Shown in pieces: positions 1 through 40,045 of a DNA stretch of 41,812 bases. The number at the start of each line of letters is the position of its first letter. The stretch's first letter is position 1. Origin of the DNA: Dialister succinatiphilus YIT 11850 (GTDB lineage: Bacteria; Bacillota; Negativicutes; Veillonellales; Dialisteraceae). The stretch covers positions 56,915-98,726 of the forward strand of contig NZ_JH591190.1 of the NCBI RefSeq assembly GCF_000242435.1, in the 5' to 3' direction. A model generated the notes under the pieces. It saw only the letters and a program-made list of their open reading frames with translations. It made no database searches and had not been told where the DNA came from. The position numbers were made by a program, and so were the translations under genes.

Positions 1-352
1 GCCCTGGGCCCCAAGGGTTCTATCCGGGACCGGCTGACGCCTCCCGGATGGGTTGAGGGCCTTCGGCCCAGGGAGTTATATAATACCGCTGCGTTGGCGA
101 GGTACGGCGCCTTACGGCGCCATTTTGTAAGCCGCTTTGCGGCAGTTTTCCGCCGTCAGGCGGTATATCATGGCGCCCGACAGGGCGCCCACATCGCCAG
201 CGCAGCGATGCTTTATAACTCCCGAGGGCGGGAGCCCTCAACCCGCCTGTCAGGCGAAGCCGATCACAGGCAGAACCCTTGGCGCTGAGGGCCGCAGGCC
301 CGATAGCGCCATCAACCCTCACGCCGCAGGCGTGTCAACCTTCGGGAATACA
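1..352 (-). repeat. Composite multi-hairpin intergenic element, copy E1
   Basis: This 350-bp noncoding stretch is a run of GC-rich hairpins joined by short conserved connectors. Read on the minus strand it starts at TATTCCCGAAGGTTGAC (end near 352) and continues through hairpin, GAGGGTTGA, two-tier hairpin (280-311), AGGGTTCTG, hairpin, GGGTTGA and hairpin to GGGAGTTATA. It is cut by the window edge. A near-identical copy lies in opposite orientation at 3363-3712. Small open frames inside are chance products of the repeat. Confidence 0.85.
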
Positions 353-3362: not shown

Positions 3363-3712
3363 GTATTCCCGAAGGTTGACGCCCGCTTTCGCGGGCGAGG
3401 GTTGAGCCAGCCGCCGGGCTGACGCCCTGGGCTGGCAGGGTTCTGCCTGTGATCGGCTTCGCCTTACAGGCGGGTTGAGGGCTTGCGCCCTCGGGAGTTA
3501 TAAAGCATCGCTGCGCTGGCGATGTGGGCGCCCTGTCGGGCGCCATGATATACCGCCTGACGGCGGAAAACTGCCGCGAAGCGGCTTACAAAATGGCGCC
3601 GTAAGGCGCCGTACCTCGCCAACGCAGTGGTACTATTTAACTCCCTGGGCCGAAGGCCCTGAACCCATCCGGGAAGCGTCAGCCGGTCCCGGATAGAACC
3701 CTTGCCAGCCCA
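3363..3712 (+). repeat. Composite multi-hairpin element, copy E2
   Basis: Plus-strand copy of the element at 1-352, running from TATTCCCGAAGGTTGACG to about CCGGATAGAACCCTT. It is nearly identical to the reverse complement of E1 over the central 270 bases. The first two hairpins differ completely yet stay paired: GCCCGC/GCGGGC and GCCAGCC/GGCTGGC (3406-3436), against CACGCC/GGCGTG and TGGCGCT/AGCGCCA in E1. No gene is supported here. Confidence 0.85.
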
Positions 3713-4090
3713 GGGCCGTCAGGCCCGGCGGCTGCCTCAACTCGAGCGCAGCGAGGTTGGCCTGTTTTCCTCGGGCGAAGCCCGGTTGTCCGGTTTTCGC
3801 CGCCAAAGGCGGCATAAAAAATGGCGCCCCATAGGGCGCCCACCTTCCCAATCGGTCGGGCGATTAAAAGGAAGGCCTCCTGTTGGGCAGGCTAGAGGCC
3901 AACTTCGCCCGACTTGCGTATTCCATGCGGAATACGCACAGAGCGATACTATATACCTCCCGAGGGCGGAGCCCTCAACCCGTCCGGGAGGCGTTAGCCG
4001 GTCCCGGACAGAACCCTTGGCGCCCAGGGCCAGAGGCCCGGCGGCGCCATCAACCCTCGCGGCGAAGCCGCGTCAACCTTCGGGAATACA
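3713..4090 (-). repeat. Composite multi-hairpin element, copy E3
   Basis: Minus-oriented copy placed head to head with E2, so the whole jag-recQ gap is a large imperfect palindrome of modules. Its terminal TATTCCCG end is near 4088. The two-tier hairpin at 4018-4049 uses TGGCGCC/GGCGCCA. It also carries the GCAT-loop double-hairpin sub-element at 3855-3938. Open frames in it are repeat-derived. Confidence 0.82.
3855..3938 (-). repeat. GCAT-loop double-hairpin element, copy A
   Basis: Read on the minus strand: a 10-bp perfect hairpin (3915-3938) with loop GCAT, then AAGTC and a two-tier hairpin with outer stem GTCGGGCGA/TCGCCCGAC and inner stem GGCCTC/GAGGCC. The invariant AAGTTGGCC and AGCCTGCCCA segments are shared with copies at 17774-17856 and 20130-20211. 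Confidence 0.85.
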
Positions 4091-11534: not shown

Positions 11535-11601
11535 ATGTGGTAAAAACAGGAAACCGCAGCCACCCCTGCCACCGCAAGGGGTAGATGCAAACCGCCACCA
11601 C

Positions 11602-11690
11602 CACCCTCGCGCCAAAGGCGCGTCAAACTTAAGAACCCTCCGGCCCATAGGGCCGGTCAATCTTAAGAACCTTCCCCTATGAACCCTTTT
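11602..11690 (-). repeat. Two-hairpin TTAAG-connector element
   Basis: Reads CACCCT, hairpin CGCGCC/GGCGCG, TCAAACTTAAGAACCCT, hairpin CCGGCCC/GGGCCGG, TCAATCTTAAGAACCTT. The same connectors with other stems occur at about 17940-18028, 34270-34470, 39140-39375 and 39940-40045. It lies downstream of araC and the feo operon. Confidence 0.85.
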
Positions 11691-13235: not shown

Positions 13236-13732
13236 ATTATGGCCCTGTGATGACGGGCCGCCTGCCGCCATGTGCGTGTACCATGGGGGAGTGAGATTTT
13301 GCTGCTCTGCTGCGCTTTCGTCGAAATGACGACAGGGCAAGGCGGCGTTTCTGCTATCTGAGGCGTGAGATTTCTCCACTCCGCTCCGCTACGGTCGAAA
13401 TGACGAAGTGGCGAGTTGGCGTTTCTGTCATTTGCCCCTTTGAAATGACCGTATGCTGCCTGCCGCCACCGTCATCTCGAGCGGAGGGACATGGCGGTAT
13501 GGGGATAAAGACCTCGGGGGCTATTGAAACGCTGAGTCGAGAGATCTCCGGTCGCTATGCTGCATACCATGGGAGAGTGAGATTTTGCTGCTCCGCTGTG
13601 CTGCGGTCGAAATGACGAAGCGGCGGGTCGGCGTTTCTGTCATTTGAGGCGTGAGATTTTGCTGCTCTGCTTTCGTTGAAATGACGGTGGGGCGGAGGGG
13701 GTTCGGTGTCCATCATTTCCCACAGCCCTTTT
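13236..13732. repeat. Repeat island flanked by duplicated half-terminator
   Basis: About 480 bases without a gene. It contains three diverged copies of a GTGAGATTTTGCTGCTC...TCGAAATGAC module (near 13289, 13577 and 13651) and related GAGATTTCTCC and GAGAGATCTCC versions. The 21 bases 13215-13235 (3' half of the dps terminator) recur exactly at 13712-13732, so the island is bracketed by direct repeats. Confidence 0.75.
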
Positions 13733-17630: not shown

Positions 17631-18028
17631 TGTATTCCCGAAGGTTGACGCGGCTTCGCCGCGAGGGTTGATGGACCATGCGCTAACGCGCTGGTCCAAG
17701 GGTTCTGTCCGGGACCGGCTTTGCCTCCCGGACTGTTTGAGGGCCTCCGGTCCAGGGAGTTATATAGTATTGTGGAGGTCCTGCATAGGACCTCCAAGTC
17801 AGCCAAAGTTGGCCCTTAGCCTGCCCATAAAAGGGCCTTCCTTTTAGTCGGCTGACCGTACCGCTGGCGAGGTGGGCGCCAAAGGCGCCATTTTAATGCC
17901 GCCAAAGGCGGCATATATGCTCATCGCTCCGAAGGAGCGATACCACAACCCTCGGCCCAAAGGGCCGTCAAACTTAAGAACCCTCCGGCCGACAGGCCGG
18001 TCCATCTTAAGAACCCTTTTTATATATC
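17631..18028 (+). repeat. Composite multi-hairpin element, copy E5
   Basis: Starts with TATTCCCGAAGGTTGACG, then hairpins CGCGGC/GCCGCG, TGGACCA/TGGTCCA (17672-17698, two-tier) and GTCCGGGA/TCCCGGAC, then GGGAGTTATATAG, the GCAT-loop element (17774-17856), GGCGCC and GCCGCC hairpins. It ends in a reversed TTAAG-connector element (about 17940-18028, stems CGGCCC/GGGCCG and CCGGCC/GGCCGG). It lies in the mnmG-rsmG gap and would be in the leader of any read-through rsmG transcript. Confidence 0.83.
17774..17856 (+). repeat. GCAT-loop double-hairpin element, copy B
   Basis: Hairpin GGAGGTCCT-GCAT-AGGACCTCC (17774-17795), then AAGTC and a two-tier hairpin with outer stem GTCAGCC/GGCTGAC and inner stem GGCCCTT/AAGGGCC around AGCCTGCCCA. 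The stems differ from copy A but all remain paired. Confidence 0.87.
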
Positions 18029-20016: not shown

Positions 20017-20347
20017 TACTTTTTTTGATGGTAAGATTCCCGCCCGTTCGAGCGGGGCTTCGTGCCGGTATGGGTGGGAAGGGCGTGGGCTCTATGGAAA
20101 CTCTGAGCCGGGAGATTTCTCCACTCTGTGGAGACTCTGCATAGAGTCTCCAAGTCAGCCGAAGTTGGCCTCTAGCCTGCACAATAAGAGGCTTTCCTAT
20201 TGGCGGCTGATCGGCTGCGGTCGAAATGACGGAGGGAAGGGATCGGTGTCATTCATGGCATGTGATTGCAGGAGCTTGCATCCGCTCCTTCTCTTTGCTT
20301 ACTATCTGATAGAGGGTCCATCATTTCTTCACAGCTCCTTTTCTATT
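20017..20347. repeat. Repeat island flanked by duplicated half-terminator (second case)
   Basis: About 300 bases of noncoding DNA with the GAGATTTCTCCACTC module (20112), GCAT-loop element copy C (20130-20211), and TCGAAATGACGGAGGG...GATCGGTGTC (about 20220). CATCATTTCTTCACAGCT from the tetR terminator (19991-20008) recurs at 20319-20336. Layout parallels the island after dps. Confidence 0.72.
20130..20211 (+). repeat. GCAT-loop double-hairpin element, copy C
   Basis: Hairpin GGAGACTCT-GCAT-AGAGTCTCC (20130-20151), then AAGTC, outer stem GTCAGCC/GGCTGAT (G-T closing pair), inner stem GGCCTCT/AGAGGCT around AGCCTGCACA. Same plan as copies at 3855 and 17774. Confidence 0.86.
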
Positions 20348-31410: not shown

Positions 31411-31438
31411 GTTCACTGCCGCATAGGCAGTTTAGAAA
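31411..31438 (+). CRISPR. Solitary type I-F-like CRISPR repeat
   Basis: The 28 bases begin GTTCACTGCCGCATAGGCAG and end TTTAGAAA. This is close to the type I-F repeat I know from Pseudomonas and enterobacteria (about 25 of 28 positions), including the CTGCC/GGCAG hairpin. A possible degenerate second copy starts GTTCATTG at 31465, giving a 26-base interval. No cas genes or further repeats are in the window, so this is a relic, a stand-alone repeat or a coincidence. Basis: sequence plus memory of the consensus. Confidence 0.55.
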
Positions 31439-32334: not shown

Positions 32335-32966
32335 TTCAGCATGTCTTTCCATTCGTCGGGGTAGTCGCCGCGGTATTCTACCACCTGGTCCATAGGTTTT
32401 CTGGGCAGGGGGCGGACTTCTTTGTCGGTGTAGCCGAAGGCGATGGCAGCTGCCATTTCTCCGTCTTCATGGAGCCATTCTTTCAGTTCGTCGTAGGCAA
32501 AGAAGACGTTGCAGGTCCAGAGGCTTCCGATGTTGCGGTTGGTGGCTTCGAGGCACATGTTCTGGATGGCAGCGCTGATGGACTGGATGTCGGCCAGTTC
32601 CATGAGGTATTCGTCCTTGGGATGGTCTTCGCGGTAGTTCAGGCCTTTGGTGTTCATGACGAATACGATGACCGGCGCCTGTTCCAGCACCCGGGCGGTG
32701 TAGATGGCGGAGGGGATGAATTTTTCGTATTTCTTCCCGAAAATGGCGTTTTCTTCGCCTTTTCTGTTTTTCATGATGCCTTCCTTCAGGCATTTCACCA
32801 TGGCTTTTCTTTCGGCGCCGCGGATGACGATGAATTTCCAGGGCTGGGCGTTCTTTTCGGAGGGGGCCCACATACCGGCTTCCAGGATCTGGTTCAGGTC
32901 TTCCTGGGGAATCGGTTTCTGGAGAAAATGACGGATACTTCTTCTTTTGTAAATAGCTTCTAACAC
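32331..32966 (-). CDS. Nitroreductase family protein (first)
   Basis: Encodes a 211-residue flavoprotein of the nitroreductase fold, which uses FMN and NAD(P)H. Family marks are YKRRSIRHFLQKPIPQEDL at the N-terminus (FMN-phosphate-binding RRSIR), the WAPSEKNAQPWKFIVI segment (about 33-48) and IGSLWTCNVFFAYDELKEWL near 146-165. The physiological substrate is unknown. A paralogue with the same layout is at 35867-36457. The upstream region has no obvious regulator, and the gene is monocistronic with a terminator that overlaps its stop. Confidence 0.9.
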   Translation of the reverse strand: MLEAIYKRRSIRHFLQKPIPQEDLNQILEAGMWAPSEKNAQPWKFIVIRGAERKAMVKCLKEGIMKNRKGEENAIFGKKYEKFIPSAIYTARVLEQAPVIVFVMNTKGLNYREDHPKDEYLMELADIQSISAAIQNMCLEATNRNIGSLWTCNVFFAYDELKEWLHEDGEMAAAIAFGYTDKEVRPLPRKPMDQVVEYRGDYPDEWKDMLK

Positions 32967-34159: not shown

Positions 34160-34470
34160 CCGAAGGCAGGAGGGTTCAGGCGCCTTAGGCGCCCGGGTTC
34201 AAGCCGCCGTCGGGTTGCGCCGAAGGGCGGCATATATACTTATCGCCCGATAGGGCGATACCACAACCCTCAGGCCGCAGGCCTGTCAAACCTGAGAACC
34301 CTCGGGGTGAAGCCCCGTCAATCTTTAGAACCTTCCGCACCCAGAGGGCGCGGGGTCTCAAAGCGGCTTACAAGCTGCCGCGAAGCGGCCGCCTTAACCC
34401 TCGGGGCATCAGCCTCGTCAAACCTAAGAACCTTCCGGCCATCGGGCCGGTCAATCTTAAGAACCTTTTC
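34160..34470. repeat. Multi-hairpin TTAAG/CCTGAG-connector elements
   Basis: A chain of hairpins: GGCGCC/GGCGCC, GCCGCC-type and ATCGCCC/GGGCGAT, then CAACCCT, CAGGCC/GGCCTG, TCAAACCTGAGAACCCT, CGGGG/CCCCG, TCAATCTTTAGAACC, GAAGCGGCC-type, and a second unit ending TCAATCTTAAGAACCTTTT. In the first unit the connector carries CCTGAG, matching the CTCAGG stem start, instead of TTAAG. It ends 20 bases before the mce start, inside that gene's leader. Confidence 0.78.
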
Positions 34471-35866: not shown

Positions 35867-36457
35867 TCAGAGCCGGACTTCGATGACGTCGTCTTCGCTC
35901 TTTCTTGCCAGGGGGCAGGGGTTGTGGTTGGGGTAGCCGAAGGACATGGCCATGACCATTTCCCCTTCGCCCAGCCAGTCATGGAGTTCATCGTAGGCGA
36001 AGAAGATGTTGCCGATCCACAGGCTTCCGATGCCCATGGAGGTAGCCTGGAGGGCCATGTTTTCAGCAGCGGCGCCGATGGCCTGTACGTCGGAAAGTTC
36101 GTGGATTTTTTCAGCGGCAGTCCAGTTGTCGGTGAGGGGGCGGCCCTGGGGATTTACGATGAATACCAGTACCGGTGCCTGTTTCATGCACTGCAGGGTG
36201 AAGCGGGCGTTGGTAAAGAGTTCCGGTGCTCCGGCCAGGACGCCTTCACCTTTTTCTGATCTTTCAATGCCCTTTTCCATGAGGGCCAGTGCCGTTTTCT
36301 TGCTCTCTCCCTTCACTACGATGAATTTCCAGGGCTGACGGTTCTTGGCAGAGGGGGCCCACATGCCGGCACGGAGGATTTCGCGCATGTCTACCTTGGA
36401 AATGTCGGTGTCCTTGAAGAAACGGACGCTTCGTCTTTTGAAAATCAGATTGTACAT
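35867..36457 (-). CDS. Nitroreductase family protein (second)
   Basis: Encodes a 196-residue FMN-dependent nitroreductase-fold protein. FKRRSVRFFKDTDISKVDM, WAPSAKNRQPWKFIVVKG (about 33-50) and IGSLWIGNIFFAYDELHDWL mirror the paralogue at 32331-32966, which is about 15 residues longer in the middle. The two probably arose by duplication and specialised; substrates are not predictable. GGTGGAAATACT precedes the ATG at 36457. It is convergent with doc and shares its terminator. Confidence 0.9.
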   Translation of the reverse strand: MYNLIFKRRSVRFFKDTDISKVDMREILRAGMWAPSAKNRQPWKFIVVKGESKKTALALMEKGIERSEKGEGVLAGAPELFTNARFTLQCMKQAPVLVFIVNPQGRPLTDNWTAAEKIHELSDVQAIGAAAENMALQATSMGIGSLWIGNIFFAYDELHDWLGEGEMVMAMSFGYPNHNPCPLARKSEDDVIEVRL

Positions 36458-36546
36458 AGTATTTCCACCTTTCCTGATATTTGATCCTTGTGATTATGCT
36501 TTTTTCATTATACACCGTTTTGAGGTTTTAGTGTTGGAATGCCCAA

Positions 36547-37080
36547 AGTTTCCTGTGGGAAAGAAGGACCAGTGGTGTCATGCCGGGCAGGAAACCATAT
36601 GCCCACAGTTTCCTGTCGGAAAGGAACACCAGTGGTATCATGCCGGACAGGAAACCCTTTGCGAAAAGTTTCCTGTCTGGCATGAAGCCGCAGTGTTTCA
36701 GCAGAGTAGGAAACTCTTTGCAAATAGTTTCCCGTCCGGCAGGAGACAAAGGCGTTTCCTCTGGGTAGGAAACCCTTTGTGAAAAGTTTCCCGTTTGGCA
36801 TGAAGCCGCAGTGTTTCAGCAGAGTAGGAAACTCTTGGCGAATAGTTTCCTGTCTGGCATGAAGCCGCAGCGTTTCCATAGAGTGGGAAACCTTTTGCTT
36901 ATAGTTTCCTGTGCGGCATGAAGCAGCAGTGTTTCAATAGAGCAGGAAACCCTTCGCCTCTAGTTTCCTGTGCGGCATGAGAGTACAGCGTTTCCATAGA
37001 GTAGGAAACCTTTCGCGAATAGTTTCCCATCTGGAATGAAGCAGCCGCGCTCCAACACCATAGGAAACCTCTCACGAATT
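36547..37080. repeat. Nine-unit 59-60 bp tandem array
   Basis: AGTTTCC recurs at 36547, 36607, 36667, 36726, 36785, 36844, 36903, 36962 and 37021 (period 60, 60, then 59). Each unit has GTTTCC and GGAAAC arms around about 35 bases that often read GGCATGAAGC-GCAG. Units differ by scattered substitutions. Since 59 is not a multiple of three, the open frames across it are not coding repeats. The units are too alike to be CRISPR spacers. Confidence 0.88.
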
Positions 37081-39139: not shown

Positions 39140-39375
39140 TTTATAATGGGCCGCCTTTGGCGGCCCCGCGCCCTTTGGGCGCGAAGGGTTCTAAAGATTG
39201 ACGGGGCTGCGCCCCGAGGGTTCTCAGGTTTGACAGGCCTGCGGCCTGAGGGTTAAGGTATCGCCCTGGGACACACCTTCGGTGTGAGGGTTGACGGGAC
39301 TTCGTCCCGAAGGTTCTTAAGGTTCGTAAGTTTGACGGCCTTTCAGGCCGAGGGTGGTGGTATCGCCCTTACGGT
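39140..39375 (+). repeat. Multi-hairpin connector element (reverse of the 34 kb type)
   Basis: Runs GGCCGCC/GGCGGCC, GCGCCC/GGGCGC, AAGGGTTCTAAAGATTGAC, GGGGC/GCCCC, GAGGGTTCTCAGGTTTGAC, AGGCC/GGCCT, CTGAGGGTTAAGG, ACACC/GGTGT, GAGGGTTGACGG, GGGAC/GTCCC, GAAGGTTCTTAAGG and CGGCC/GGCCG. It contains one connector from the TATTCCCG class and several from the TTAAG class, so the two classes are related. Confidence 0.8.
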
Positions 39376-39393
39376 GCACAGCGAACACATTTT

Positions 39394-39539
39394 GCACTAT
39401 GCGAACTGGATTTGTAAGGGAGCATCAGCGACCTGAAAATCCAGTGAGTCAGTGACAGCAGTGGATGCACTATGCGAACTGGATTTGTAAGGGAGCATCA
39501 GCGACCTGAAAATCCAGTGAGTCAGTGACAGCAGTGGGT
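39394..39539 (+). repeat. 73-bp tandem direct repeat
   Basis: Two adjacent copies (39394-39466 and 39467-39539) differ at one position. Each holds the hairpin ACTGGATTT/AAATCCAGT around GTAAGGGAGCATCAGCGACC. The outer flanks ACATTTTGC (about 39387) and GCAAAATGT (about 39559) also pair. A single inverted copy lies at 41650-41812. A diverged single module is at 39797-39842 (GAACTGGATTC...GAATCCAGTGA). Confidence 0.88.
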
Positions 39540-39939
39540 GAAGGAGCGCTAGCGACGCGCAAAATGTAGTGAGTCGTTTCCCCTTTAGGGGGCGATGAAC
39601 ATAAAGTCAGCGTTACGGGATGACATTGCTGTATCATATGGTATGATAAGCATTCTGCAGGCTGGCTCGCTGCGCTCGCCTCCCCCTATCCGGCTTTGCC
39701 GGACTTCCCCCTGTTCAGGGGGAAGAATAAAACACCTCGAAGCCTCGCTTCGTAAGCGGCTCTACAGTAAGCACGGGTTATTGTGCCACCTCGAAAAGGA
39801 ACTGGATTCATAGGGGAGCTTTGAGACCCGCGAATCCAGTGACATGCTTCCCACCGGGCAAGGTGGTGGCGCCAGCCACCAAAGGGGAATCTCCATCGCC
39901 TGCCAGGGCGGTTGTAAAGGTTTTATCATAAGAGGGCGC
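39540..39939. repeat. Mixed repeat modules upstream of dnaB element
   Basis: Contains CCCCTTTAGGGG, GGCTCGCTGCGCTCGCC, TCCGGC/GCCGGA, CCCCCTGTTCAGGGGG and GCCTCGCTTCGTAAGCGGC hairpins, and the GAACTGGATTC module (39797-39842). A 72-codon frame starting at 39595 spans these repeats and is rejected. Confidence 0.6.
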
Positions 39940-40045
39940 CTTCTATAAATATAAGGCGCTCACCACAACCCTTGGTCCCAAAGGGGCCATCAAACTTAAG
40001 AACCCTCCGGCCAAAGGCCGGTCAATCTTAAGAACCTTTTGCTCA
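39940..40045 (-). repeat. Two-hairpin TTAAG-connector element near dnaB
   Basis: GGCGC/GCGCC near 39938, ACAACCCT, TGGTCCC/GGGGCCA (one G-T-like offset), TCAAACTTAAGAACCCT, CCGGCC/GGCCGG, TCAATCTTAAGAACCTTTT. It lies downstream of the 3' end of dnaB. Confidence 0.82.

Follow-up and report, generated by a model that had tools for sequence, protein, structure and literature searches.

Hairpin elements of the window

The window analysed here, a stretch of 41,812 nucleotides (positions 56915–98726 of contig C4), comes from the 2.5-Mb, 99.95% complete genome of Dialister succinatiphilus YIT 11850 (G000). Arrays of short hairpins lie upstream of rpmH, between the terminator of jag and recQ, and at further sites. 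Each arm of an element is a row of GC-rich hairpins of 5–8 bp set in fixed single-strand connectors (TTGA...AGGGTT, CTTAAG and others), and the arms, a few hairpins each, are arranged around a centre of ~0.5 kb. In the core module, TTGA-[C stem loop stem G]-AGGGTT, the hairpin is flanked by conserved, unpaired TTGA and AGGGTT. The following features were mapped, with the strand given where one is assigned.

1–352: element with two arms, situated upstream of rpmH; its left end falls under an assembly gap upstream of the window, right end CCTTCGGGAATA
280–311: two-tier hairpin, outer arms TGGCGCT/AGCGCCA
320–334, minus strand: right-arm core hairpin module, CACGCC TGC GGCGTG
3364–4089: two-arm element of composite build, lying between the terminator of jag and recQ
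3380–3397, plus strand: left-arm core hairpin, CGCCCGC TTTC GCGGGCG
3406–3436: two-tier hairpin, outer arms GCCAGCC/GGCTGGC
4018–4049: two-tier hairpin, outer arms TGGCGCC/GGCGCCA
4058–4072, minus strand: right-arm core hairpin, CGCGGC TTC GCCGCG, unlike the left-arm one at 3380–3397
11598–11671, minus strand: right half-element with two TTAAG-linked hairpins (11608–11622, 11640–11656)
17633–18023: hybrid element with a TATTCCCG left arm (hairpin 17649–17663; two-tier hairpin 17672–17698, TGGACCA/TGGTCCA) and a TTAAG right arm (hairpins 17953–17967, 17985–18000)
34164–34466: element with hairpins at 34179–34193 (plus) and at 34271–34285, 34303–34317, 34402–34417 and 34435–34450 (minus), some of them mismatched
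39148–40035: inverted two-arm element with five plus modules (39202–39350) and two minus modules (39973–40021)

The shared connectors reported in the initial annotation were located where it had placed them, on both strands, and the TTAAG-connector elements that it listed at 11602, 17940, 34270, 39140 and 39940 are present. The outer arms of the four two-tier hairpins are all exact reverse complements, as it had stated. The long copies are not simple tandem units: in 3364–4089, a near-complete two-arm element is joined to another that has no left arm, 1–352 is a partial two-arm element, and 17633–18023 has hybrid arms. Their inverted two-arm design had been overlooked.

This design is apparent from the order of the modules, which runs from plus to minus in 103 of the 111 arrays in which both strands carry modules, and is reversed in two. 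With plus-strand modules in the left half and minus-strand ones in the right, the elements are large inverted repeats. Connectors are complementary between the two arms; the hairpins mostly differ between them, and each arm holds a partly different hairpin repertoire. The inner left and right hairpins are identical in 5 of 103 elements, versus 9.8 expected from shuffles, which is only suggestive that the left and right hairpins of one element may have to differ. The shortage might mean that long perfect palindromes are lost. For heterodimeric REP pairs, evasion of SbcCD-type cleavage has been proposed (PMC3733652); by analogy, such an escape could explain the rarity of the same hairpin in both arms.

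Dialister sp. UBA1703 (G006) is a relative in the same genus, and aligned genes are mostly ~80–90% identical between the species compared. At the G006 site orthologous to 1–352, only the two ends are present, joined by one hairpin. The arms of this collapsed form (CACGCCC/GGGCGCG) are chimeric with one pair unmatched, as would be expected if each arm derives from a different hairpin. Two collapsed TTAAG elements are found in G000. The element at 3364–4089 is missing at the same site in three relatives (G003, G006 and G007), and the G006 site corresponding to 17633–18023 carries an element of the same plan, in which the two-tier stem is wholly different (GGGCACTG/CAGTGCCC versus TGGACCA/TGGTCCA). 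Comparison of the species thus shows elements gained or lost as well as elements rewritten in place.

Like MITEs, the elements have terminal inverted repeats (TATTCCCGAAGGTTGAC ... GTCAACCTTCGGGAATA). The element ends run on into further repeated sequence, and at empty orthologous sites between G000 and G006 the flanks are too diverged for placing insertion junctions. No internal ORF was noticed among the paired element ends listed. The elements are best explained as Dialister-specific, non-coding, foldback-type intergenic elements.

Copy number and distribution of the family

A whole-genome scan with the core module pattern, in the form KTTGACN{6,32}RAGGGTT, gave 486 matches in G000 versus 5 for the reversed pattern. 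The hairpin-element family proposed in the initial annotation is thus real and far larger than claimed there. G006 has 188 matches versus 5 reversed-pattern controls, and the remaining members of the genus are near background. Further analysis covered stretches of G000 (~1.2 Mb) and G006 (~0.58 Mb), and arrays occupy ~9% of the former. The family may be one cause of fragmented assemblies in these gut species.

A covariance model, proposed earlier as a means of searching related Negativicutes, matched 3 of 250 Negativicutes genomes, all from Dialister, with no matches in the others. Among these genomes, only three Dialister species have the repeat family. The exact pattern occurs in 3 of the 61 genomes of the order; the lone match in G003 is not a hairpin of the Dialister family. 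The same genome has three covariance model matches, one of them strong, and two TATTCCCG-ended elements, one of which is near rRNA genes. When 84,980 species genomes were scanned for the pattern, a set from which records of the window's own genome were possibly omitted, only Dialister sp. UBA1703 was matched. No element matches an Rfam family above the gathering score, the only Rfam match of the window being a CRISPR direct repeat at 31411–31438 (RF01317, CRISPR-DR4), and our literature search found no paper on such repeats in Dialister. The family is apparently undescribed, as had been supposed from the window alone. A phage origin was rejected: annotated phages lack a match, and viral contigs have one.

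Pairing, covariation and replacement of stems

Hairpins of G000 were collected in two ways. The exact-connector set was obtained in a search step without a pairing filter; in 400 kb, all 184 matches are hairpins, and 975 of their 993 stem pairs (98.2%) are Watson-Crick. The relaxed collection (855 hairpins, 283 distinct, in 1.2 Mb) demanded partial pairing, and its percentages are therefore upper estimates. The earlier statement that every change on one arm is matched on the other holds for ~96–98%; within the window it fails at 34303–34317 and 34402–34417. An assignment of hairpins to slots by connector was dropped as a basis for claims, its loose mismatch rule having merged two slots.

In an alignment of 51 distinct 17-nt hairpins, 95.8% of the cells are paired. 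The covariation score, a check recommended in the initial annotation, is 0.693, far above shuffles (0.160 ± 0.022) and slid partners (0.03–0.12), controls that correct for relatedness only in part. A two-hairpin alignment scores 0.469 versus 0.150 when shuffled. Single stem pairs vary (AU:22, GC:21, CG:8), and the composition is biased, with the second stem pair never being T-A. When rare stems of the relaxed collection were compared with common ones, compensated single-pair changes numbered 39, versus six uncompensated two-sided changes. Mismatches in this collection comprise 56 G.T and 46 A.C, and 24 of each on the sense strand of tandem genes. The missing G.T excess is weak evidence because terminator-like hairpins from the same genomes, put through the same test, give only 101 G.T to 74 A.C, leaving it little power.

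The way in which stems change is best seen between closely similar copies. Among 407 module pairs with at most 3 mismatches in 40 per flank, 52 are block-swapped perfect stems, which represent 25 combinations of alleles. For 44 of these 52 pairs, each of the two alleles is also found elsewhere; thus, donors exist. Copies sharing 76–79 of 80 flanking bases hold wholly different, perfectly paired hairpins; for example, flanks differing by 1 base in 80 enclose CGACCTTTCAGGCCG in one copy and CGGGGCCTTCGGCCCCG in the other. Likewise, L001 and L007, elements that lie downstream of two different 5S rRNA genes, are the same over ~100 nt except for two bases, and their first hairpin is CGCCC-TGC-GGGCG in L001 versus CGCGGC-TTC-GCCGCG in L007. 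Neighbouring hairpins 17 nt apart have ~12% of allele information in common, that is, adjacent hairpins assort near-independently; loops partly travel with the stems. G-C/C-G flips (21) outnumber G-C/A-T changes (13), for which a wobble route is possible. Slow compensation via G.U would not predict this pattern, which fits one-step copying of both arms; whole hairpins are swapped as units between copies while the connectors stay fixed.

Origin of the compensated stems

On balance, we lean towards the view that hairpins of these foldback-type elements are rewritten at the DNA level, with dispersed copies exchanging sequence by ectopic conversion and template switching. Block exchange is shown by the module pairs, and we infer the enzymology as follows. 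The conserved connectors would serve as short homologies for copying. Where a replication fork stalls or a hairpin breaks, the matching hairpin would be copied from one of the hundreds of other copies. Template switching within a hairpin, one arm being copied from the other, would create a new compensated stem. Either of the two processes could underlie a given event. Such events could also fuse a left arm to a right one, leaving an element with a single hairpin. Since a single event would alter both arms, stem changes would come out compensated. Template switching has been found to yield one-step compensatory changes (PMC8794818), along with loop changes, in single RNA genes, whereas in Dialister the copies are dispersed, number in the hundreds and have donors within their own genome. 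The collapsed G006 element with its chimeric arms, the near-complete pairing of the exact-connector set and the presence of donors count for DNA-level rewriting. The repertoires of the two arms still differ in part, so hairpin exchange is not free.

The initial annotation had offered two options, namely, that structure is selected or that the arms are copied together. Block swaps, the ratio of flips to wobble-route changes and the unlinked neighbours favour the latter. That the arrays are functional structured RNA or DNA elements, with selected hairpins whose stems drift by compensatory point mutations, seems quite unlikely. Very strong covariation would agree with it, as would the orthologous site at which two species have a like architecture and different stems; however, blocks are replaced in otherwise almost unchanged flanks, flips exceed the wobble-route changes, G.T does not exceed A.C on the sense strand (a weak point, given the terminator control), and the elements have no Rfam match. 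Gene orientation is not preferred either (p = 0.64), although orientation tests are of limited value because the elements themselves are inverted. The stem composition bias counts against DNA-level rewriting, as neither template switching within hairpins nor ectopic conversion predicts it. Perfectly matched stem changes probably arise in single DNA-level steps and not by slow selection on RNA, while hairpins as such may be kept by selection. Covariation is commonly taken as proof of a selected RNA structure, yet here one genome holds hundreds of copies with very strong covariation in which near-identical copies show one-step stem replacement. Covariation in this case is therefore no proof of selection on, or function of, an RNA. 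The arrays of G000 are a caution for covariation-based RNA discovery, and they offer a natural setting in which to test how template switching and ectopic conversion act on hairpins.

Plain non-autonomous transposons or REPIN-like repeats, with stem differences inherited by subfamilies and spread by a transposase acting in trans, would account for the inverted ends, high copy number, species-specific amplification and presence or absence at orthologous sites. We consider this origin unlikely: the reassortment of alleles between neighbours separated by 17 nt is not explained by subfamily descent alone, no transposase-bearing internal copy was noticed among the paired ends listed, and no target-site duplication is definable where ends lie in repeats and empty sites are diverged. 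The Y1 transposase of the REP/RAYT type (PF01797) was not found in G000 or G006, whereas control genomes give matches, and REP/RAYT was ruled out on this ground. REP, REPIN and BIME repeats of enterobacteria and Pseudomonas resemble the Dialister elements as high-copy intergenic palindromes in inverted pairs and mosaic combinations, the inverted pairing of palindromes corresponding to the plus-then-minus order described above, and compensatory changes have been reported for REPIN hairpins (PMC3116915). By contrast, the Dialister arms have many hairpins in fixed connectors and undergo whole-stem replacement, and their hairpins, flanked by TTGA and AGGGTT, lack the unpaired GTAG/CGTC tag that defines REP (PMC3733652). 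The outer C-G pair is part of the stem, and the neighbouring pair varies (AU, GC, CG). Mitochondrial double-hairpin or repetitive hairpin elements and GC clusters are likewise GC-rich intergenic hairpin repeats with an unclear mobility mechanism (PMC2800124, PMC4478555). In those of sponges, stems are conserved and loops vary, whereas in Dialister stems vary and connectors are conserved; the Dialister elements are also far longer and two-armed. Eukaryotic foldback elements have long inverted repeats of short modules around a variable centre. The Dialister elements share this plan and differ in being bacterial, non-coding in all copies seen and built of hairpin modules.

Hairpins could also be exchanged as cassettes by a dedicated enzyme that recognises folded single-stranded hairpins and connectors, comparable to the integron integrase acting on attC. 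In integron attC sites, structure is kept while sequence varies, and few unpaired bases are conserved. Dialister hairpins are similar in all three respects, and the exchanged unit is indeed the hairpin, with invariant connectors and free stems. Nevertheless, such an enzyme is very unlikely: generic recombination would yield the same pattern, and the candidate families searched, Y1 and reverse transcriptase, are absent from G006, the latter being found only in G000. Read by eye, the connector GTTGAC misfits the GTTRRRY of the attC cores (RYYYAAC/GTTRRRY), and the likeness to attC would not extend to R and L core sites, cassettes or an integron integrase. It is scarcely probable that the arrays are substrates, at hundreds of chromosomal loci, of a process that cuts and replaces single folded hairpins with connectors as recognition sites.

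Reverse transcriptase was rejected as a common mover, being present in G000 and absent from G006. The three G000 genes (C1:476279-476911, C1:548218-548850 and C4:47749-48381; L231–L233) have identical match scores and 469-aa open frames, are absent from the other Dialister genomes searched and possibly belong to group II introns.

Several further repeats were noted. Within the element at 39148–40035, positions 39393–39538 consist of two tandem 73-bp copies, 99% identical, and like segments occur in other arrays. A tandem array with a period of ~59–60 nt lies at 36540–37061, each unit having a variant of AGTTTCCTGT. Dispersed repeats around GTCGAAATGACG / GAGATTTCTCCACTC at 13279–13696 and 20102–20241 form a separate family without TTGA...AGGGTT connectors. 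Two pairs of duplicated stretches (32473–32600 and 35973–36100; 32827–32912 and 36318–36403), 73–78% identical, are probably paralogous genes. In G006, intergenic DNA adjoining hairpin arrays (e.g. L148, ~2225–2987) contains octamer runs such as CTAGTGAT and CTAGTGAG.
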